From: an uncultured Alphaproteobacteria bacterium
GTDB taxonomy: Bacteria; Pseudomonadota; Alphaproteobacteria; UBA11222
Assembly (NCBI GenBank): GCA_947258435.1
Contig: CAMYID010000004.1
Span: forward strand, 124,001 to 188,000
DNA: 64,000 nucleotides
Direction of reading: 5' to 3'
Shown here: positions 26,069 to 59,755 of the stretch, piece by piece
Numbering within the stretch: position 1 is the first letter of the stretch
How the letters are laid out: each line of letters starts with the position of its first letter
The notes under the pieces: model-generated
Seen by the model: only the letters and a program-made list of their open reading frames with translations
The model's database searches: none
What the model was told of the DNA's origin: nothing
Program-made: the position numbers and the translations under genes

Positions 26069-27073
26069 TCAGGCTTTGAGATCGGCCAGCATCTCAGGCA
26101 AATCCGCTTCCGCGACAAAGGGGAAGCGTGTTGCCACCCGGTCAACGATATCGCCGAATCGGGCGCGGATGCCAGGCACAATGTCGCCCGGTTCGCCCAC
26201 AATTGCGAATTCGTTCAGGATGTCATCCTCGATTAATGCACCCATTTCATCCCAGCGGCCCTGCTTTGACAGCAGGTTAAGCTCGCCCTGCAACGCGCCC
26301 CAGCCATGCTGTTCGAGCACCGGGCGATAGGCCGGGGTCGAGCCGTAGAAGGCGATTTGTTTGCAGGTGGCCTTTTTCGTGCGTGCGAATTGCTGCTCAT
26401 CGGCACCGGAGACGACGAACAGCGGATAGCAGATTTCGAAATCGGCGCGGCTGCGGCCCGATTTCGAAAGCCCCTTCTCGATTGCGGGCAAGGTGACATT
26501 GCGCATGTACCGCTCGGTCGTGAAGCCATGAATTAGGATGCCATCGGCGACTTCGGCCGCGACCTCCGTCATCAGCGGGCCGACCGCCGCCAGCAATATG
26601 CGCGGCGCGCCAAACTGCGTATCCTCGGGGGTGAACATCGGTGTCATCAGCGTGTGGGTGTAAAACTCGCCCCGGAAATCGAGCGGCTGCCCCTCATACC
26701 AGTTGGCCCAGATCGCACGCATGGCAAGGATCAGTTCGCGCATCCGTGCGGCCGGTTTCCCCCAGGGCATGGAAAAGCGTTTTTCGATATGCGGCCGGAT
26801 CTGAGAGCCAAGGCCAAGGACAAAGCGTCCCTGGGAATAGGCGTTCAGATCATGCGCCATGGCGGCAAGGTTCATCGGGCTGCGTGCGAATGCAACCGCG
26901 ATTGAGGTGATAAGGTCGACCTGCCTGCTATGTTCGGCCGCAAGCAGCAGCGGAAAGAACGGGTCATGGGCGGTTTCCGCGCTGATTACCCCGTCAAACC
27001 CTGCCGCTTCCAGCATCTTCACGGTTTCGGGCACCCGTGCAAGCGAGGTGCCTAATGCGCCATCCACTTTCAT
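26069..27073 (-). CDS. LLM-class F420-dependent oxidoreductase, MSMEG_2256-like (TIGR03617 type), copy 1
   Basis: A 334-residue luciferase-like protein. GFDGVISAETAHDPFFPLLL, then ITSIAVAFARSPMNLAAMAH, GRFVLGLGSQIRPHIEKRFS and MPWGKPAARMRELILAMRA are the pattern of the MSMEG_2256 family of F420-dependent enzymes. It is the downstream gene of a tandem pair; 33 bases separate it from the start-proximal paralogue (27107-28111). Both are very similar, with FSMPWGKPAARMRE and FRGEFYTHTLMTP identical, so they arose by tandem duplication. ATG 27073 follows GAGGAACGAGG. Reaction unknown; mycobacterial relatives are linked to lipid or xenobiotic oxidation. Confidence 0.9.
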   Translation of the reverse strand: MKVDGALGTSLARVPETVKMLEAAGFDGVISAETAHDPFFPLLLAAEHSRQVDLITSIAVAFARSPMNLAAMAHDLNAYSQGRFVLGLGSQIRPHIEKRFSMPWGKPAARMRELILAMRAIWANWYEGQPLDFRGEFYTHTLMTPMFTPEDTQFGAPRILLAAVGPLMTEVAAEVADGILIHGFTTERYMRNVTLPAIEKGLSKSGRSRADFEICYPLFVVSGADEQQFARTKKATCKQIAFYGSTPAYRPVLEQHGWGALQGELNLLSKQGRWDEMGALIEDDILNEFAIVGEPGDIVPGIRARFGDIVDRVATRFPFVAEADLPEMLADLKA

Positions 27074-27106
27074 CCTCGTTCCTCCATTGTCAGCTGTTGC
27101 GGGGCG

Positions 27107-28111
27107 TCAGCTTGCCAGTTCGCGGATCAGCGCGGGGCGTTCGGCCACCGGCGCATAGCTGAAATTGATCGTGATCCGGTCGACAAGTCCTGTATAGCGC
27201 TGTTTGATCATCGGCACGATCTCCTGCGGTTCACCGACGACCGCGAACGTGTTCAGGATGTCATCCTCGATCAACTCGGCCATTTCGACCCATTTGCCCT
27301 GCTTTGACATCAGATTCAGTTCGGGTTGCAAGCTGCCCCAGCCATGGGTTTCGAGTACCCGACGATAGGCCGGCGTCGAGGCATAGAAGGCGATACGCTG
27401 CTTGATTGCCTGCTTGCTTTCGGCGAATTGCTCTTCGGTTTGTCCGGAGACAACGAAGACCGGATAGGACAGTTCGAAATCCTGGCGGGTAAGGCCGCGT
27501 TTCTTCAGCCCCGCTTCGATCACCGGCAAGGTGTGCCGCTCAAGATAGCGGGTCGAGGTCAGCGGATGAACCAGCATCCCGTCGCAAAGATCGGCAGCAA
27601 CCTCTGTCATCATCGGACCAACTGCCGCCAGGAACACGCGCGGCGGGCCGAACGGGCTTGGGGTTGGCGTGAATACCGGTGTCATCAGTGTGTGGGTGTA
27701 AAATTCGCCCCGGAAATTGAGCGGTTCGCCGTCATACCAGTTGGCCCAGATGGCGCGCATTGCCGAAATCATCTCCCGCATGCGTGCTGCCGGTTTCCCC
27801 CAGGGCATGGAAAAGCGTTTTTCGATATGCGCCTTGATCTGCGAACCAAGTCCAAGGATAAAGCGCCCCTCCGAGTAGCCGTTCAGATCGTTGCCGATCG
27901 AGGCAAGGTTCAGCGGGTTGCGCGCGAAGGCGACGGCAATGGCGGTAATCAGATCGATCTGCTTGCTATGCTCCGCCGCCAGTGCCAGCGGCAGGAACGG
28001 ATCGTGGCCGGTTTCCACTGTTTGCGCGCCGTTGAACCCGGCCATCTCTAGCATTTCCACCCGCTCTGCAGCTTTCGCCATACCGATCGGTAATTCGCCA
28101 TCTACCTTCAT
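27107..28111 (-). CDS. LLM-class F420-dependent oxidoreductase, MSMEG_2256-like (TIGR03617 type), copy 2
   Basis: A 334-residue paralogue of the adjacent downstream LLM protein. It has GFNGAQTVETGHDPFLPLAL, ITAIAVAFARNPLNLASIGN, GRFILGLGSQIKAHIEKRFS and GAASWP-free, fully collinear sequence with no gaps of note. Differences cluster around residues 30-40 and in the segment after LMTP, which may alter substrate choice. ATG 28111 is favoured: GGAGGAAATA lies directly upstream, whereas the open frame to 28126 starts inside that site. It is the first gene of the two-gene unit and divergent from the DUF4202 gene. Confidence 0.9.
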   Translation of the reverse strand: MKVDGELPIGMAKAAERVEMLEMAGFNGAQTVETGHDPFLPLALAAEHSKQIDLITAIAVAFARNPLNLASIGNDLNGYSEGRFILGLGSQIKAHIEKRFSMPWGKPAARMREMISAMRAIWANWYDGEPLNFRGEFYTHTLMTPVFTPTPSPFGPPRVFLAAVGPMMTEVAADLCDGMLVHPLTSTRYLERHTLPVIEAGLKKRGLTRQDFELSYPVFVVSGQTEEQFAESKQAIKQRIAFYASTPAYRRVLETHGWGSLQPELNLMSKQGKWVEMAELIEDDILNTFAVVGEPQEIVPMIKQRYTGLVDRITINFSYAPVAERPALIRELAS

Positions 28112-28330
28112 TATTTCCTCCTGCACTGCTTTTGTCCGCGTTGTCCGTCCGGCTTCACCAGGATCGGATGCACGATGATCTGTTGTGTGTCATTCAAGCA
28201 TATCTTGCGCGGCCCCGCACCCCGCTTGTGGAGGCGGCTGCCCAGTAAGTGCTGGCACCGGTTGCCATGGGCCAGTATAGAATCGCTGCAAAATGTCCAA
28301 TCTGTAATGTCAGCGTGAAAGGAGTTGCCC

Positions 28331-29915: not shown

Positions 29916-30506
29916 CTAGCGTGGTGTTGCAAAGCCCTCTCCCGGCGGCGGGAAATTACCACTCTCGCCTTCGGGGTTGCCAAACGGCACGAAACGGTCG
30001 GTTTCGTGCACCTGCTGATAATGATGCAATGCCCAATGGCTGCTTGGAAAGGCAATCTCGTCCCATGGGATTTCGTCCCACTCATACAGCGCCACTTCGC
30101 TGCTTTCGGGACCCGCGCTGACATCAGGAGAGGTAAGCCGCGCTTTGTAGATCAGCTGCACCTGGCTGATCCGCGGAATGTTATAGACCGCGAGCAACGA
30201 CAAAATCTCGATCCGGGCATTGGCCTCCTCGCGGGCTTCGCGCATCGCGCCCTGTTCGCTTGTCTCCTTTTCCTCCATATAGCCTGCGGGCAGTGTCCAA
30301 TAACCTTTTCGCGGCATGATGGCGCGACGGCACATCAGGATTTTCCCCTGCCATTCGCAGACAGCGCCCACAACGATTTTCGGGTTTACATAATGCACGA
30401 AGCCGCAATCGTTGCAGACAAGGCGCTCCCGATCATCGCCGTCGGGAACCGCAAGCGAAAAGTCAAATCCGTCCGTCGCGGGATGGTGAGATTCAGATTT
30501 GTTCAT
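29916..30506 (-). CDS. Nudix hydrolase with N-terminal zinc-ribbon-like segment
   Basis: A 196-residue Nudix enzyme. The Nudix box starts at Gly75: [20 protein letters not shown], with metal-binding REAREE, and the usual EEXGU ending reads EEANA. Before it, Cys31 and Cys34 in [20 protein letters not shown] form half of the small zinc-ribbon seen in many ADP-ribose or NADH-type pyrophosphatases ('C..C....Y.NP....G'). It probably cleaves a nucleoside diphosphate linked to another group; the exact substrate is open. ATG 30506. Convergent with the crotonase gene, divergent from the MarR gene. Confidence 0.9.
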
Positions 30507-30590
30507 GCACGGATTATCGCATAGCGGCCGTTATCGGGTCCAGCAGATGTAGAAAAATGCGAAAAAGTTGGTATGCGGTCGGGATTTTAC

Positions 30591-30620
30591 TTGTTTGTTA
30601 AGGAAAATCGTTGCAAACAA
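30591..30620. repeat. Inverted repeat TTGTTTG/CAAACAA upstream of the MarR gene
   Basis: TTGTTTG (30591-30597) and CAAACAA (30614-30620) form a perfect 7-base inverted repeat with a 16-base spacer in an AT-rich 254-base divergent region, unlike the GC-rich surroundings. It may be a second regulator site or promoter element between the Nudix and MarR genes. Confidence 0.4.
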
Positions 30621-30664
30621 ATAATCCTAAAGTTTTTGTGGTATTTCAGGTTAGTACAGGAAGC

Positions 30665-30681
30665 GGACAATTTTATTGTCC
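30665..30681. promoter_or_regulatory. Candidate MarR operator (GGACAA-TTTTA-TTGTCC)
   Basis: A 17-base perfect dyad, GGACAATTTTATTGTCC, lies 80 bases upstream of the MarR-like gene start. MarR-family dimers bind dyads of just this length and shape, often in their own promoter. The dyad is seen directly; that the adjacent regulator uses it is inference. Confidence 0.5.
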
Positions 30682-30760
30682 ATTCAGAAATATCGCAGAC
30701 AATATCCATTTATCTCTGGGGGAATGCGGAACATCCCCCTTCCGTAATCGGAGCAAGAGA

Positions 30761-31438
30761 ATGGCAAAAGCAACCAAAGTAACGAAAAAAGCCCGCAAGC
30801 CTGTCGCCAAAAACACACCGGCACAGAAGAAAGCCGCAACCGCCGCCAAGCCGGCAGCGCGCAAACCCGTTGCAGCGAAAAAGCCAGCGGCAAAGAAGCC
30901 CGCAGCGAAGAAGCCAGCGATCAGGAAGGCCGCTGCCGCGAAACCGGCGCCCGCGCGCCGTCGTAGCCGGGCGGCTGCAACTGCAGCACCTGCTGCGCCC
31001 GCGAAAGCGGCACCGACACCGGTTCTGACGGATTCGCCGGGGCATTTGTTGCGCCGGGCCGAACAGCGGGCAATGAATATCTATATGCAGGAGGTTGGCA
31101 GTAAAGGGCCAACACCACGGCAGTTCGTCGTGCTGACAGCGGTGGCCGCCAATGAGGGGATCAGCCAGACAGACCTTGTCGCTGCGACCGGTATCGACCG
31201 TAGTACTCTCGCTGACATGATCAGCCGGATGATCAAGAACGGGCATCTCAGCCGTAATCGGACAAAAGACGATCAGCGGGTGAATGCCGTTAAGCTGACT
31301 GCTGCGGGGCGGCGTGTTCTGAAGGCGGCGGAACCCAAAGTCAAGGCCGCTGAGAAACGGGTGGTCCAACCGCTTCCCGCCGCAAAGCGTGCCGCTTTGC
31401 TTGAGGCGTTGCAGGCCCTTGCGGGACGTGACGAATAG
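30761..31438 (+). CDS. MarR-family regulator with a histone-H1-like Ala/Lys/Pro N-terminal tail
   Basis: A 225-residue protein in two parts. Residues 1 to about 85 are almost only Ala, Lys, Pro and Arg in AKKPAAKK-type repeats (KPVAAKKPAAKKPAAKKPAI), like eukaryotic H1 or bacterial H1-like tails, and would be disordered and DNA-binding. Residues about 90-222 are a MarR winged helix: TDSPGHLLRRAEQRAMNIYM, PTPRQFVVLTAVAANEGISQ, TDLVAATGIDRSTLADMISR and RNRTKDDQRVNAVKLTAAGR, with the usual wing Asp/Arg. The tail may raise non-specific DNA affinity. A 17-base dyad lies upstream, suggesting self-control. ATG 30761 is used; the open frame to 30611 is AT-rich non-coding sequence. An intrinsic terminator follows. 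Confidence 0.88.
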   Translation: MAKATKVTKKARKPVAKNTPAQKKAATAAKPAARKPVAAKKPAAKKPAAKKPAIRKAAAAKPAPARRRSRAAATAAPAAPAKAAPTPVLTDSPGHLLRRAEQRAMNIYMQEVGSKGPTPRQFVVLTAVAANEGISQTDLVAATGIDRSTLADMISRMIKNGHLSRNRTKDDQRVNAVKLTAAGRRVLKAAEPKVKAAEKRVVQPLPAAKRAALLEALQALAGRDE

Positions 31439-31482
31439 CGGCGCGTAGTAGCTGCCGCTTGCGAAGTTTATCCTGCCAAAAG

Positions 31483-31520
31483 ACGGGCTGCCTGAATTTC
31501 AAATGCGGGCAGCCCGTTTT
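31483..31520. terminator. Bidirectional intrinsic terminator
   Basis: ACGGGCTGCC (31483-31492) pairs with GGCAGCCCGT (31508-31517) over a 15-base loop. TTTT follows on the plus strand, and CTTTT follows the stem on the minus strand. It lies between the convergent MarR and quinone-reductase genes and can serve both. Confidence 0.85.
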
Positions 31521-31562
31521 ATCGGTTTTCGGCCGATTTGCGCAATCATGTGCGGTGGCGGC

Positions 31563-32552
31563 TTACATCACCACGACGACGCGGCCCACAACCTCGCGGT
31601 TCTGGATCATGCGCAATGCCTCATGCGCATTTTCAAGCGGGATTTCCGCGCAGACATAAGGATTGATTTTTCCTTCTTCGGCCCACTGATCCACCATTGC
31701 GATATTTTCACGCCCCTTTTCGGGATCACGGCGGCCATATTCCCCGGCCCGTACGCCGACAATCGAAAAGCCTTTGATTAGCGGCATATTGACCGGTGCT
31801 TGCGGGATGCGGCCGGATGTAAAACCGATGACCAGCAACCGGCCGTTCCAGGCGATGCAGCGGATCGATTCATCAAAGACGTCGCCGCCGACCGGGTCGT
31901 AAATCACATCTGCACCGTTTTGCTCGGTCAGTTCCTTTACCTTCAGCCGAAAACCGTTTTTAAAATCCGGACCGTAATTGATCAGGTGGTCGGCGCCATA
32001 TTTTTTGACGATTGCGAGCTTTTCGTCAGAACTGCCGGTTGCGATCACGGTTGCGCCGAGCATTTTGCCAACCTCGACAGCCGCCAGCCCGACGCCACCC
32101 GCCGCGCCATGCACAAGCAGCGTTTCGCCAGGCTGAAGATCGCCGCGCCGGATGAGCGATACCTGCGCAGTCAGATAGGCGGAACGGAACGAGCAGGCCT
32201 GCCCGTAAGTCAGGGGTGTCGGCTTGGGGCGCAATGTGCCTTCATGGACATTGACCTCTTCCGCCAGTCCGCCACCGCCAAGCATGCCCGCGACCACGGC
32301 GTCACCCAGTTTCCAGTCGCTGACGCCCGGCCCGACATCGATGATATCACCGGCAAATTCCGTTCCCGGAATATAGGGAAGCTCGGGCTGGTACTGATAT
32401 TTCTTCTGAATCATCAGAATATCGGGAAACTGGGTAGACGCGGCGCGGACCCGCACCCTTACCTCACGCTCGCCCGGTGGGGGCAGCTCTACTTCCTCAA
32501 GCCGCATGACCGAAATATCTTCACTATTCTCGTGAACCACCATTGCGCGCAT
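31563..32552 (-). CDS. NADPH:quinone oxidoreductase family (MDR) protein
   Basis: A 329-residue medium-chain reductase of the zinc-free quinone-oxidoreductase type. It has ELPYIPGTEFAGDIIDVGPG, LLVHGAAGGVGLAAVEVGKM (NADPH-binding AAGGVG), DVIYDPVGGDVFDESIRCIA and GFTSGRIPQAPVNMPLIKGF near the end. Zinc ligands of alcohol dehydrogenases are absent. It likely reduces a quinone or an alpha,beta-unsaturated carbonyl. ATG 32552 follows GGAGGAAATGCA. 42 bases separate it from the upstream coiled-coil membrane protein gene, so the three genes 34912 to 31563 may be one transcript (CoA ligase, membrane protein, reductase). Confidence 0.91.
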   Translation of the reverse strand: MRAMVVHENSEDISVMRLEEVELPPPGEREVRVRVRAASTQFPDILMIQKKYQYQPELPYIPGTEFAGDIIDVGPGVSDWKLGDAVVAGMLGGGGLAEEVNVHEGTLRPKPTPLTYGQACSFRSAYLTAQVSLIRRGDLQPGETLLVHGAAGGVGLAAVEVGKMLGATVIATGSSDEKLAIVKKYGADHLINYGPDFKNGFRLKVKELTEQNGADVIYDPVGGDVFDESIRCIAWNGRLLVIGFTSGRIPQAPVNMPLIKGFSIVGVRAGEYGRRDPEKGRENIAMVDQWAEEGKINPYVCAEIPLENAHEALRMIQNREVVGRVVVVM

Positions 32553-54780: not shown

Positions 54781-54932
54781 ACAATGTGTGTTGGGTTCCC
54801 GACGGGGGAGCGCGCACCACTGATCCGTTGGTTGTAGCCTGATCGCGCCCCACACAAGGGGTGGGGCAGGGTGTGCGATGGTCGGTGCGCCTGCCCTGTT
54901 GGTACGGACCGCCGATAAGGAACGGACAGATC

Positions 54933-55976
54933 ATGGCCACAGCCAATCCCGGGCAGAAAATTCCCGCAACTGTCATCACCGGCTTTCTGGGTGCCGGCAA
55001 GACAAGCCTTATCCGCCATTTGCTGCAATCTGCAGGCGGACGGAAACTTGCTCTGATCATCAATGAGTTTGGCGATCTGGGTGTCGATGGTGACATCCTG
55101 AAAGCCTGCGGTGATGAGAACTGCACCGAAGAAGATATTGTCGAGCTGGCCAATGGGTGTATCTGTTGCACGGTGGCCGATGATTTTCTGCCGACGATCG
55201 AAGCCTTGCTCGCCCGTCCTGACAGACCCGATCACATCGTCATTGAAACTTCGGGCCTTGCGCTGCCCAAACCGCTGGTTCAGGCGTTTAACTGGCCAGA
55301 GATCCGTACCCAGGTCACCGTCGACGGGGTGATCGCGGTGGTTGATGGCCCGGCGGTGGCTGACGGCTTGTTCGCATCTGACCCGGCGGCGGTACAGCGT
55401 CAGCGGCAGGCGGATGACAATCTGGATCATGAAAGCCCGCTTGAGGAACTGTTTGAGGATCAGCTCGCCTGCGCGGATATGGTTGTACTGAACAAGGGCG
55501 ATCTGCTTGATGAAAATCATTTCAGCGATGTGAGCGATATCATTCGGGGGCAGACCCGCTCCGCTGTCAGGCTAATCCGGGCGGCTCATGGGGTGGTGGA
55601 TCCGCAGGTTCTGCTGGGGTTGGGCGCGGGCGCGGAAGATGATCTGGCGAACCGGCCCTCGCATCACGATAGCGATCCGGATCACGATCACGATGATTTT
55701 GAAAGTTTCGTCGTCGAACTTGCGACGATTACCGATCCGACAGCGCTTGTCGCCCGGATTGAGCCTGTTATCGCGGCGCATAATATTCTGCGCATCAAGG
55801 GTTTTGCCGCTGTCGAGGGCAAGCCGATGCGGCTCGTTCTGCAGGGGGTGGGCGCGCGGCTGAACCATTATTACGATCGTGAATGGCAACCAGGTGAAGC
55901 GCAGGTAACGCGGCTTGTAGTGATCGGTGAGACAGGGCTCGACCAGGCGGCGATCCGGGCCGCGCTGACGGGTTAA
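54933..55976 (+). CDS. cobW: Cobalamin biosynthesis GTPase CobW (COG0523 metal chaperone)
   Basis: A 347-residue G3E GTPase thought to deliver cobalt to the CobN chelatase. Walker A ITGFLGAGKTS (about 16-26), the metal-binding CxCC motif NGCICCTVADDFLPT with Cys76, Cys78 and Cys79, and the ET-SGLALPKPL segment are present. A His/Asp-rich stretch, PSHHDSDPDHDHDDFES, lies near residue 250 and probably binds metal. ATG 54933 follows AAGGAACGGACAGATC, about 150 bases after the riboswitch, so a riboswitch-controlled leader is certain. cobN starts 14 bases after its stop. Confidence 0.95.
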   Translation: MATANPGQKIPATVITGFLGAGKTSLIRHLLQSAGGRKLALIINEFGDLGVDGDILKACGDENCTEEDIVELANGCICCTVADDFLPTIEALLARPDRPDHIVIETSGLALPKPLVQAFNWPEIRTQVTVDGVIAVVDGPAVADGLFASDPAAVQRQRQADDNLDHESPLEELFEDQLACADMVVLNKGDLLDENHFSDVSDIIRGQTRSAVRLIRAAHGVVDPQVLLGLGAGAEDDLANRPSHHDSDPDHDHDDFESFVVELATITDPTALVARIEPVIAAHNILRIKGFAAVEGKPMRLVLQGVGARLNHYYDREWQPGEAQVTRLVVIGETGLDQAAIRAALTG

Positions 55977-55990
55977 CGCGCGGATCCGTA

Positions 55991-58900
55991 ATGCATCTTC
56001 TGGCAGCAAAACCCGGCGAGATTACCGATGGGTCCGAAGCGGTAGACCTTGGCCAGACGCCGGGCGATATCGTCATTCTGTCCGCCGCGGATAGTGAGCT
56101 TGCCGGGATTGCCGGGGCCTACGCTGCGGATGGGGACAATCTGCCGAGCCTGCGGTTGGCCAATTTGATGCAGCTTGGTCACAATCTGTCAGTTGATATC
56201 TATACAGATGAAATTGTCGCCTCTGCCAGGCTCGTTGTGATCCGCTTGCTTGGCGGGGTCGGTTACTGGAGCTACGGGGTTGAACGGGTTACTGCCATCT
56301 GTCGCGCGCGTGACATTCCGCTTGCTATTTTACCCGGTGACGATCAGCCTGATGCGGAGCTTGTGCGGCTAAGCCGTCTGCCTACGGACGTTTGCCATCG
56401 CTTGTGGCAATATTGCATTCACGGGGGGCGGGAAAATTTCCGCAACATGCTTGCTTATTGTGCCGCGTTGACTGGTCGGGCGGTTGAATGGGCGGAACCC
56501 GCGCCGGTCCCGCGGGCCGGAATTTACGGGCCGGGCCTTGTGCATCCGGAACTGCGCGATCTTATGGCGGAATGGCAGGCGGATGCGCCTGTCTGCGCCA
56601 TTGTGTTCTATCGTGCGCTGATGCAGGGCGGCAATCTTGCTCCCGTCGATGCGCTGATCGATATGCTGAAGGAAGCGCGGCTCAATCCGCTGCCGCTCTA
56701 TGTCGCAAGCCTCAAGGACCCGGTCTCGGCAGAGCTTGTGGCGGCGCTGCTTGCCGAAGCGGGTGCCGATATCGTGCTTAATGCGACGGGGTTTGCTGTT
56801 GCGACGCCGGGAGAAGCGCGCGCCTCTTCACCCTTCGATGGTTGTGATTGCCCGGTGTTGCAGATTGTGCTGGCGGGTAATTCAGAGGAAAGCTGGCGAG
56901 AAGGCTTCACCGGGCTTGGTGCGCGCGATATTGCGATGAATGTCGCCCTGCCAGAGGTGGATGGCCGGATACTCAGCCGCGCCATTTCATTCAAGGCGGA
57001 AGCACGCCGTGATGCGGCAACCCAATGTGCGGTCGTCACCTATGCGCCGATTGATGACCGGGTGCGGTTTGTCGCAGCACTTGCTGCCCGCTGGGTCAGG
57101 TTGCGTCACGCACCCGTTGCGCAGCGCCGGGTGGCGATTATCCTTGCCAACTACCCTAACCGTGATGGCCGGATCGGCAATGGGGTGGGGCTTGATACCC
57201 CGGCTGGCACGATCAATTTACTGCGCGCCATGGCGGCACAAGGCTATACAATCACGGATATGCCCGAAGATGGCGCCGCACTTGTTGCCCGTATTCTGGA
57301 AGGTCCGACAAATGCGGTCACGGGGCGTGCATTGCGGCGCGCCGAACTTCATCTCTCGCTTGCCGGTTATCGGGCCTATTTCGATACATTACCCGAAGAA
57401 GTGCGCACCGCGATGTGCGCACGCTGGGGGCAACCCGAAGCCGATCCGTTTTTTTCCGACGGACGCTTCGCACTTTCTGCGTTTCGTATCGGGAATGTCG
57501 TGATCGGATTGCAGCCTGCGCGCGGCTATCAGATTGATCCGGTATCAAGCTATCATGATCCCGATCTTGTCCCACCGCATGGCTATGCCGCCTTTTATGC
57601 CTGGCTTCGGTTTGAGTTTGATGCTCATGCGGTGCTGCATATGGGCAAGCATGGCAATATGGAATGGCTGCCAGGCAAAGCAGTGGCCTTGTCGGAGACT
57701 TGTTTCTCTGAAGCGATGTTCGGCCCGACGCCGCATCTTTATCCGTTCATTGTCAATGATCCGGGCGAGGGCACGCAGGCCAAGCGACGCGCGCAGGCGG
57801 TCATCATCGATCATCTGACACCGCCCATGACCCGAGCGGAAACCTATGGTCCGCTTGCCGATCTTGAACGCCTTGTCGATGAATATTATGAGGCGACGGG
57901 GGTCGATCCGCGCCGCGTGCGGGTGCTGGGCGAAGAGATCCTGCGTCTGACCGTTTCCGCCGGGCTTGATCGCGATTGCGGCATTCTGCCCGACGATGGC
58001 GAGGATGACCGCCTGGCCAAGCTCGATAATTATCTGTGCGAGTTGAAAGAGCTGCAGATTCGCGATGGGCTGCATGTTTTCGGTGCATCCCCGCAGGGCC
58101 GTCAGCTGACAGACCTTCTGGTTGCGCTGGTGCGGGTGCCGCGCGGGGCAGGAGAAGGGGGCGATGCCTCTTTGATCCGTGCGATGGCCGAAGATGCGGG
58201 ATTTGGCAGCAAGGCGGATTTTGACCCGCTCGATTGCCGGTTCGGCGATCCGTGCAAGGGGCCGCGCCCCGCGATCATGGGATCGGCGGCGGGCTGGCGT
58301 AGCCGGGGGGATACGGTTGAGCGGCTGGAAATACTGGCGTGCCGGTTTGTTGAAGGCACGCTTGCGCCGCCGCCGGACTGGCACAGGACACGTGCCGTGC
58401 TTGCCACGCTGGAGCGCGATATCGGGCCTGCCGTCGCGGCATCGGGGGAAGCGGAGATTGCGGCTGTTCTGAAGGGGCTTGATGGCTGTTTCGTTGAGCC
58501 TGGCCCCTCCGGTGCGCCAACCCGGGGGCGTGTCGATGTGCTGCCGACCGGGCGCAACTTCTATTCCGTCGACAGCCGCACCGTGCCGACGGCCGCCGCC
58601 TGGCATCTTGGCTGGAAATCTGCGGGGCTGCTGCTTGCGCGGCACCGGCAGGAACATGGGGAATGGCCGCGTGCGCTTGCGATCAGTGCCTGGGGAACGG
58701 CGAATATGCGTACCGGCGGGGACGATCTGGCGCAGGCTCTGGCGTTGCTTGGGGTGCGGCCTGAATGGGACGCCGCGTCGCGCCGGGTGACAGGGTTTGA
58801 GATCCTGCCCCTGTCGGTGCTCGACCGGCCGCGTGTTGATGTGATGCTGCGTATATCGGGATTCTTCCGCGATGCCTTTCCGCAGCAGATCGCCTTGTTC

Positions 58901-59755
58901 GATTCGGCGGTGCGTGCGGTCGCCGAGCTTGACGAACCGGATGCCGATAATCCATTGGCGGCGCGTTACCGTAAAGAGGTGGCGGCCCACATATTGCGCG
59001 GGATGGATGCGGCGGAGGCGGCGGCGCGTGCGGGCTACCGGATCTTCGGATCGAAACCGGGTGCTTATGGTGCGGGTTTGCAGGCGCTGATGGATGAACG
59101 CGGCTGGGACAGCGAGGAAGATCTGGCGCGTGCCTATATCGCCTGGGGGGGCTATGCCTATGGGGCGGGTGCGGAAGGTCGCGCCGCGCATGGTTTGTTT
59201 GAAGCACGCCTCGCCGGGATCGATGCGGTGGTGCACAATCAGGATAATCGCGAGCATGATTTGCTCGATTCCGATGACTACTATCAGTTCGAAGGCGGGC
59301 TTGCGGTTGCCGTAGCGGTTACGAAAGGGGCGGCGGTGCCGGTTTGGCACAATGATCATTCACGACCCGAAAGCCCGAAGATCCGCAGCCTGGAGGAAGA
59401 GATTGCACGGGTTGTCCGCGCCCGTGTTGTCAATCCGAAATGGATCGAATCGGCGATGCGACACGGCTATAAAGGCGCGTTCGAGATGGCGGCGACGGTC
59501 GATTATCTTGTCGCATTCGCGGCAACCGCGCATGCGGTGGCCGATCATCATTTCGATGCGGTATTCGATGCCTATCTCGGGGATGAGCAGGTCCGCGCGT
59601 TCCTGCAGCGCGAAAACCCCGATGCCTTGCGCGAAATGGCGGAAAAATTAGGCGAAGCGCAGGACCGCGGGCTTTGGCAGCCGCGCGCCAACAGCATTTA
59701 TCCGCAACTCGAAGCGCTGATCGCACAGACGAGGAGAAATACCGATGGCCGATGA
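55991..59755 (+). CDS. cobN: Cobaltochelatase subunit CobN
   Basis: The 1254-residue large subunit of the ATP-dependent aerobic cobaltochelatase, which with CobS and CobT inserts Co2+ into hydrogenobyrinic acid a,c-diamide. Length is normal for CobN. Family blocks are visible: HMGKHGNMEWLPGKAVALSE, FVIVNDPGEGTQAKRR-like FIVNDPGEGTQAKRRAQAVI, NPDGDE-free VDEYYEATGVDPRRVRVLGE, FGSKPGAYGAGLQALMDERG and DLLDSDDYYQFEGGLA. CobS and CobT are not in the window. It overlaps cobO by 11 bases, so translation is coupled in cobW-cobN-cobO. Confidence 0.96.
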   Translation: MHLLAAKPGEITDGSEAVDLGQTPGDIVILSAADSELAGIAGAYAADGDNLPSLRLANLMQLGHNLSVDIYTDEIVASARLVVIRLLGGVGYWSYGVERVTAICRARDIPLAILPGDDQPDAELVRLSRLPTDVCHRLWQYCIHGGRENFRNMLAYCAALTGRAVEWAEPAPVPRAGIYGPGLVHPELRDLMAEWQADAPVCAIVFYRALMQGGNLAPVDALIDMLKEARLNPLPLYVASLKDPVSAELVAALLAEAGADIVLNATGFAVATPGEARASSPFDGCDCPVLQIVLAGNSEESWREGFTGLGARDIAMNVALPEVDGRILSRAISFKAEARRDAATQCAVVTYAPIDDRVRFVAALAARWVRLRHAPVAQRRVAIILANYPNRDGRIGNGVGLDTPAGTINLLRAMAAQGYTITDMPEDGAALVARILEGPTNAVTGRALRRAELHLSLAGYRAYFDTLPEEVRTAMCARWGQPEADPFFSDGRFALSAFRIGNVVIGLQPARGYQIDPVSSYHDPDLVPPHGYAAFYAWLRFEFDAHAVLHMGKHGNMEWLPGKAVALSETCFSEAMFGPTPHLYPFIVNDPGEGTQAKRRAQAVIIDHLTPPMTRAETYGPLADLERLVDEYYEATGVDPRRVRVLGEEILRLTVSAGLDRDCGILPDDGEDDRLAKLDNYLCELKELQIRDGLHVFGASPQGRQLTDLLVALVRVPRGAGEGGDASLIRAMAEDAGFGSKADFDPLDCRFGDPCKGPRPAIMGSAAGWRSRGDTVERLEILACRFVEGTLAPPPDWHRTRAVLATLERDIGPAVAASGEAEIAAVLKGLDGCFVEPGPSGAPTRGRVDVLPTGRNFYSVDSRTVPTAAAWHLGWKSAGLLLARHRQEHGEWPRALAISAWGTANMRTGGDDLAQALALLGVRPEWDAASRRVTGFEILPLSVLDRPRVDVMLRISGFFRDAFPQQIALFDSAVRAVAELDEPDADNPLAARYRKEVAAHILRGMDAAEAAARAGYRIFGSKPGAYGAGLQALMDERGWDSEEDLARAYIAWGGYAYGAGAEGRAAHGLFEARLAGIDAVVHNQDNREHDLLDSDDYYQFEGGLAVAVAVTKGAAVPVWHNDHSRPESPKIRSLEEEIARVVRARVVNPKWIESAMRHGYKGAFEMAATVDYLVAFAATAHAVADHHFDAVFDAYLGDEQVRAFLQRENPDALREMAEKLGEAQDRGLWQPRANSIYPQLEALIAQTRRNTDGR

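Follow-up and report, generated by a model that had tools for sequence, protein, structure and literature searches.

The window, i.e., the whole stretch of 64,000 nucleotides analyzed here, encodes on its plus strand a MarR regulator of 225 amino acids (30761–31438, stop codon included) with a histone-H1/AlgP-like N-terminal tail (residues 1–85; 30761–31015) and a MarR winged-helix core (residues 86–225; 31016–31435). Divergently, on the minus strand, lies a gene for a zinc-ribbon NUDIX hydrolase (29916–30506; Pfam NUDIX and Zn_ribbon_Nudix). The gap upstream of the regulator has a GC content of ~0.40, vs. ~0.58 in the surrounding DNA, and is thus AT-rich, as described in an earlier note on this DNA. 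Elsewhere in the window, a cobalamin riboswitch (RF00174; 54571–54792, plus strand; 95.8 bits) precedes genes for a CobW-like GTPase (54861–55976) and a CobN-like protein (55991–59755), a textbook arrangement, and two adjacent genes at 26069–28126 (minus strand) code for luciferase-like monooxygenase-type proteins that resemble each other, which probably reflects a tandem duplication.

The coding start of the regulator is the ATG at 30761; the congener G001 retains it, together with a Shine–Dalgarno sequence, which is directly readable as GGAG at 30750–30753, 7 nt before the ATG, within a segment that is 97% conserved. The position 30591, from which the gene had been thought to run, therefore lies in the untranslated gap. 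The open frame extends upstream to the TTG at 30611 only because there is no intervening stop; a start at this TTG, or anywhere in 30591–30760, was rejected in favor of the conserved ATG with its well-spaced Shine–Dalgarno sequence. A short upstream reading frame starting at ATG 30724 (MRNIPLP*) was also rejected, its frame being broken in G001 by a one-base insertion.

The MarR domain itself spans residues 89–222. Residues 116–174 of the core are matched by Pfam MarR_2 and MarR at ~1e-10, with 42 bits for PF12802 (cut-off 27) and 39.3 bits for PF01047 (cut-off 24.6), which places the protein in the MarR family and agrees with the normal MarR domain noticed earlier; the family alignment and Foldseek concur. 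More specific assignments are not obtained: no NCBIfam equivalog cut-off is reached by the protein, and the SlyA model matches it at the general MarR level only. The AlphaFold2 model, which is that of a monomer, shows in the core a MarR fold with the terminal helices that serve dimerization in the family, in agreement with the Foldseek matches. The recognition helix region, IDRSTLADMISR, is nearly invariant in the alignment of the orthologous MarR family. The best PDB matches to the core are PcaV (4fht), CouR (6c28, 6c2s), BpsR (6pcp), and HosA (8aga), MarR-family repressors related to aromatic compounds, all of them ligand-responsive; they share with it the winged-helix fold (Foldseek TMt 0.85–0.90, 29–32% identity) and have a similar core sequence. 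A long histone-like tail such as that of the window protein is absent from all four; in CouR, the N terminus bears no more than a short A/K-rich stretch.

The tail comprises, among its 85 residues, 34 Ala, 19 Lys, 12 Pro, and 7 Arg, i.e., 26 Lys/Arg and no Asp or Glu, and residues 1–80 have no secondary structure in the AlphaFold2 model (pLDDT about 57–66). It is hence a long A/K/P-rich, net basic, disordered stretch with KPAA/AKKP-type repeats, in other words an H1-like tail, and the composition together with the Pfam matches bears out the earlier description of an Ala/Lys/Pro tail of about 85 residues on a MarR core. The curated cut-offs of the known families are missed by the tail, which matches HC2 (PF07382) and H1-like NF038053 weakly, at 19.3 bits vs. 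40 and 24.9 bits vs. 80, respectively; thus, it may be said to work like such tails, rather than being filed in these families. AlgP/PhaF and the bacterial histone-H1-like proteins (HC2, Burkholderia H1-like) have the same kind of disordered A/K/P tail, of the KPAA/AKKPA type; in them, however, the tail stands alone or is attached to a helical or granule-binding domain, whereas in the window protein it is attached to a sequence-specific MarR core. In AlgP, KPAA-type tail peptides bind DNA in vitro, and the disordered tail is functionally required (PMC9239181). By analogy, the tail probably helps the regulator to hold DNA. In the 2.88 Mb assembly, a homology search with the tail yields matches at the MarR locus only, and a comparable tail is absent from all other MarR_2-like proteins of the genome.

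From the 352 relatives that a core search of named genomes yielded, we retained the best 80; those with usable taxon names belong to Alphaproteobacteria, including Parvularculaceae, Parvibaculaceae, and Rhodobiaceae. A C-terminal stretch counted as a tail if it had 15 or more residues, of which at least 25% were K/R and at least 60% K/R/A/P/T. By this definition, 75 of the 77 complete orthologues among the best 80 have a basic K/A/R/P tail at the C terminus (median length 45 aa, median K/R content 46%), which answers the call of the earlier note to search for MarR proteins with tails of this composition. Since the 80 orthologues are the closest of 352, the prevalence holds for the near family; ten more distant relatives included in the tree (43–53% identity) have no such tail. 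The two proteins below the threshold are L108, with 59% of tail letters, and L039, the window's congener, which has its tail at the N terminus. The basic tail is thus a trait of the near MarR orthologues, normally C-terminal. In the open-license literature, we came across no MarR subfamily whose tails are H1-like, lysine-rich, or of the PAKKA type. Among the orthologues, L126 (G217) and L127 (G136) have enormous K/A/R tails of >380 and >450 residues, in open frames of 540 and 1008 aa, respectively, while L172–L176, L142, L143, and L147 (family f65 and its kin) have K/A/E-rich tails of mixed charge, possibly a further tail type.

The position of the tail changes within one clade. The window protein and that of the congener G001 have the N-terminal tail only, while in the proteins of the sister genus (G003 and G004) each terminus is basic over a short stretch. 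In the maximum-likelihood tree of the core, these four form one clade (100/94) inside the C-tailed family. The simplest account of this distribution is that the tail moved from the C to the N terminus through a two-tailed stage, and such a move suggests that the tail is needed, while its place is not.

The opposite interpretation is that the tail is an artefact of composition, produced by slippage in a GC-rich array of Ala and Lys codons and tolerated without function, or by a wrong start site. Consistent with slippage, there is a 15-bp tandem repeat inside the tail-coding region (30872–30918), and the tail length varies widely between orthologues, from about 15 to >450 aa. On the other hand, the start codon and the Shine–Dalgarno sequence are conserved, the tail has no acidic residue, and its composition is kept between the window and G001 despite the divergence of the coding region (67% nucleotide identity, 39% at third positions in the alignment). 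A basic tail is retained by almost all near orthologues and, in the lineage without one at the C terminus, is found at the N terminus; neutral slippage predicts no such replacement. The earlier note had considered that tail-less orthologues starting at about residue 85 would point to a start-site error or a lineage artefact; orthologues do start near this residue, but with the tail at the C terminus. We consider an artefact improbable: the tail is real and conserved, and, while the MarR core and the H1-like tail are both known parts, the change of terminus is unusual.

The gene for the NUDIX hydrolase adjoins the MarR orthologue in 65 of 80 loci, including those from distant orders, while none of the other window genes tested for synteny is syntenic with the MarR orthologue beyond the congener. 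This synteny suggests a single shared regulatory gap, from which the MarR protein would control itself and the NUDIX gene; such regulation of both genes is probable.

Both inverted repeats reported earlier are present in this gap, namely the dyad GGACAAT-TTT-ATTGTCC at 30665–30681 and the pair TTGTTTG/CAAACAA at 30591–30597/30614–30620. MarR proteins usually bind palindromes of such kind near their own promoters, and the dyad, with perfect 7-bp arms and located between divergent genes, had been proposed as a self-operator. Short inverted repeats, however, are frequent in this AT-rich DNA, where 13 pairs occur in 266 bp, hence dyads alone are weak evidence. The TTGTTTG/CAAACAA pair is broken in G001, with CAAACAA changed to CAAAAAA. 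The arms of the dyad differ from those in G001 (GGATGAT-TT-ATCATCC) at four positions, while the recognition helices of the two proteins are identical, so that a change of the operator sequence is not expected. Moreover, no other part of the region is as poorly conserved as the dyad, and no equivalent GGACAAT palindrome emerged from the upstream regions of orthologues, where its conservation was to be checked. Taken together, this makes the dyad highly improbable as the self-operator.

The comparison with G001 points instead to RNA structure. The genus-specific 5′ promoter/leader region (30583–30760, plus strand) is 91% identical between the two genomes at 30583–30660 and 97% at 30691–30760, the lowest identity of the leader, 73%, being that of the dyad segment (30661–30690). 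For comparison, identity is 61–71% at the third codon positions of the genes for ECH, NUDIX, the MarR core, and QOR, silent sites being about 62% identical, and 55–67% in other intergenic DNA; the two well-conserved leader segments far exceed both levels, which indicates strong constraint on the gap. The four substitutions in the arms of the dyad (hairpin 1; plus strand) form two complementary pairs, two positions per arm, and one base of the spacer is lost. The chance that four changes hit two whole pairs of seven is 0.021, even before the new bases are required to pair; when the number of pairs was compared to column shuffles, 123 of 500 shuffles were not beaten, this control having little power with two sequences. 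The paired substitutions, together with the identical recognition helix, favor an RNA hairpin over an operator.

Two more local hairpins of the plus strand are predicted downstream: hairpin 2, GGGGGA(10)TCCCCC at 30718–30739, is unchanged in G001, and hairpin 3, the palindrome TCCGTAATCGGA at 30741–30752, appears in the folds, is identical in G001, and overlaps the Shine–Dalgarno sequence. A possible enclosing stem (30637–30697, pairing 30637–30647 with 30687–30697), seen in the fold of the window, is doubtful, 2 of its 11 pairs being broken in G001. Apart from these three local hairpins, the optimal folds of the window and G001 leaders do not agree, and the larger stems of the window are absent in G001; the fold z-scores relative to shuffled sequences are moderate (−2.0 and −2.9 for the window, −2.3 for G001). 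Rfam gives no credible match at 30300–31600, and none in the gap at the gathering threshold; no clear other copies of the leader hairpins are found in the same genome. The leader was not found in other sampled genomes of the class, the only match being one of 21 nt in G004, with no tie to the MarR orthologue. Known from the window and G001, i.e., from two genomes only, the leader is therefore suggestive of a structured RNA in which the dyad would form a hairpin. Its last hairpin covers the Shine–Dalgarno sequence, and the synthesis of the regulator is probably adjusted post-transcriptionally as well.

Hairpin 3 may also be read at the level of DNA, the palindrome TCCGTAATCGGA being an operator at which bound protein blocks elongation, and the hairpin its mere reflection in RNA. 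The motif TCCGTnnaCGGA, obtained from the upstream regions of orthologues with a log-likelihood gain of 199, vs. 31 in shuffles, was learned separately in two groups of orthologues and recovered above the 5% level in 14 of 51 and 26 of 56 held-out upstream regions, compared to 11–14% in control windows; the TCCGTAATCGGA site, identical in G001, is the best match to it in the window. This match is marginal, though (shuffle p 0.065, with the window's family left out of the training), the position of TCCGTnnaCGGA sites relative to the gene varies between lineages, and the sites are partly inherited within lineages. Besides, TTGCAA at 30611–30616 (no strand assigned), which is kept in G001, is enriched at least as much as the TCCGTnnaCGGA palindrome, being present in 30% of the orthologue upstream regions vs. 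6% of other 260-bp windows from the same loci. This hexamer is a candidate operator or −35 element, and could be a part of the promoter instead of an operator. We thus regard an operator at TCCGTAATCGGA as tentative and somewhat unlikely. A palindrome motif derived from Parvibaculaceae alone was rejected, as it fails to generalize. In another lineage (L005, ~1361–1408; the same genome region as L109), the orthologue is preceded by a long inverted repeat, AACAGTTGCAA...TTGCAACTGTT, which is a good candidate operator there.

The leader bears on the target of the tail, too, since the tail might bind RNA or polyphosphate rather than DNA, e.g., for recruitment to polyphosphate granules or for binding to the leader of its own mRNA. 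AlgP, with a tail of the same kind, sits on polyphosphate granules and spaces them (PMC9239181), and the conserved structured leader of the MarR gene fits binding to RNA. Yet the tail occurs throughout the family and the leader in a single genus only, and nothing in the neighborhood points to polyphosphate. Binding of this type, which would be compatible with DNA binding, seems to us clearly unlikely as the alternative function.

The interpretation we prefer, with a probability of roughly 0.6, is that of an alphaproteobacterial MarR repressor with an AlgP-like tail for non-specific DNA binding, which probably regulates itself and the NUDIX gene and has, in the window's genus, a conserved structured leader. 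Here, a putatively ligand-responsive, sequence-specific winged-helix dimer would be paired with a disordered K/A-rich tail of the histone H1/AlgP kind. An operator for the dimer probably lies between the regulator gene and the divergent NUDIX gene, both of which the dimer would control from there, while the tail, judging from its charge and from AlgP, probably grips the DNA backbone without sequence preference. Such a grip would raise the overall affinity for DNA and speed up the search for the operator; perhaps the tail also bridges or coats neighboring DNA, so that the protein would behave in part as a nucleoid-associated protein. Acting by charge and disorder, the tail would work at either end, consistent with its presumed C-terminal position in the ancestor, its presence at both ends in the sister genus, and at the N terminus in the window's genus. 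In the latter, the conserved leader, with its last hairpin over the Shine–Dalgarno sequence, would probably adjust synthesis after transcription.

A bolder extension, which we consider unlikely, is that the members of a large MarR subfamily in Alphaproteobacteria act as nucleoid proteins under ligand control, the core placing the protein and the terminus-mobile H1-like tail bridging or coating the flanking DNA until the ligand releases it; in the window's genus, self-control via the new leader RNA would be added. A functional link between MarR proteins and nucleoid proteins is described for counter-silencers of the SlyA/RovA type, which counteract H-NS. To our knowledge, proteins of this type carry no H1-like tail of their own.

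With respect to operators, the locus cautions against equating an upstream palindrome with an operator, as the substitutions at the dyad preserve its pairing and not its sequence. With respect to the family, it shows a specific bacterial repressor that is naturally fused, throughout the family, to a histone-like tail of about 15 to >450 residues, with a documented move between termini. The range of lengths forms a natural series in which to study how transcription factors locate their sites and stay bound with the help of disordered basic tails, a subject explored mainly in eukaryotes.
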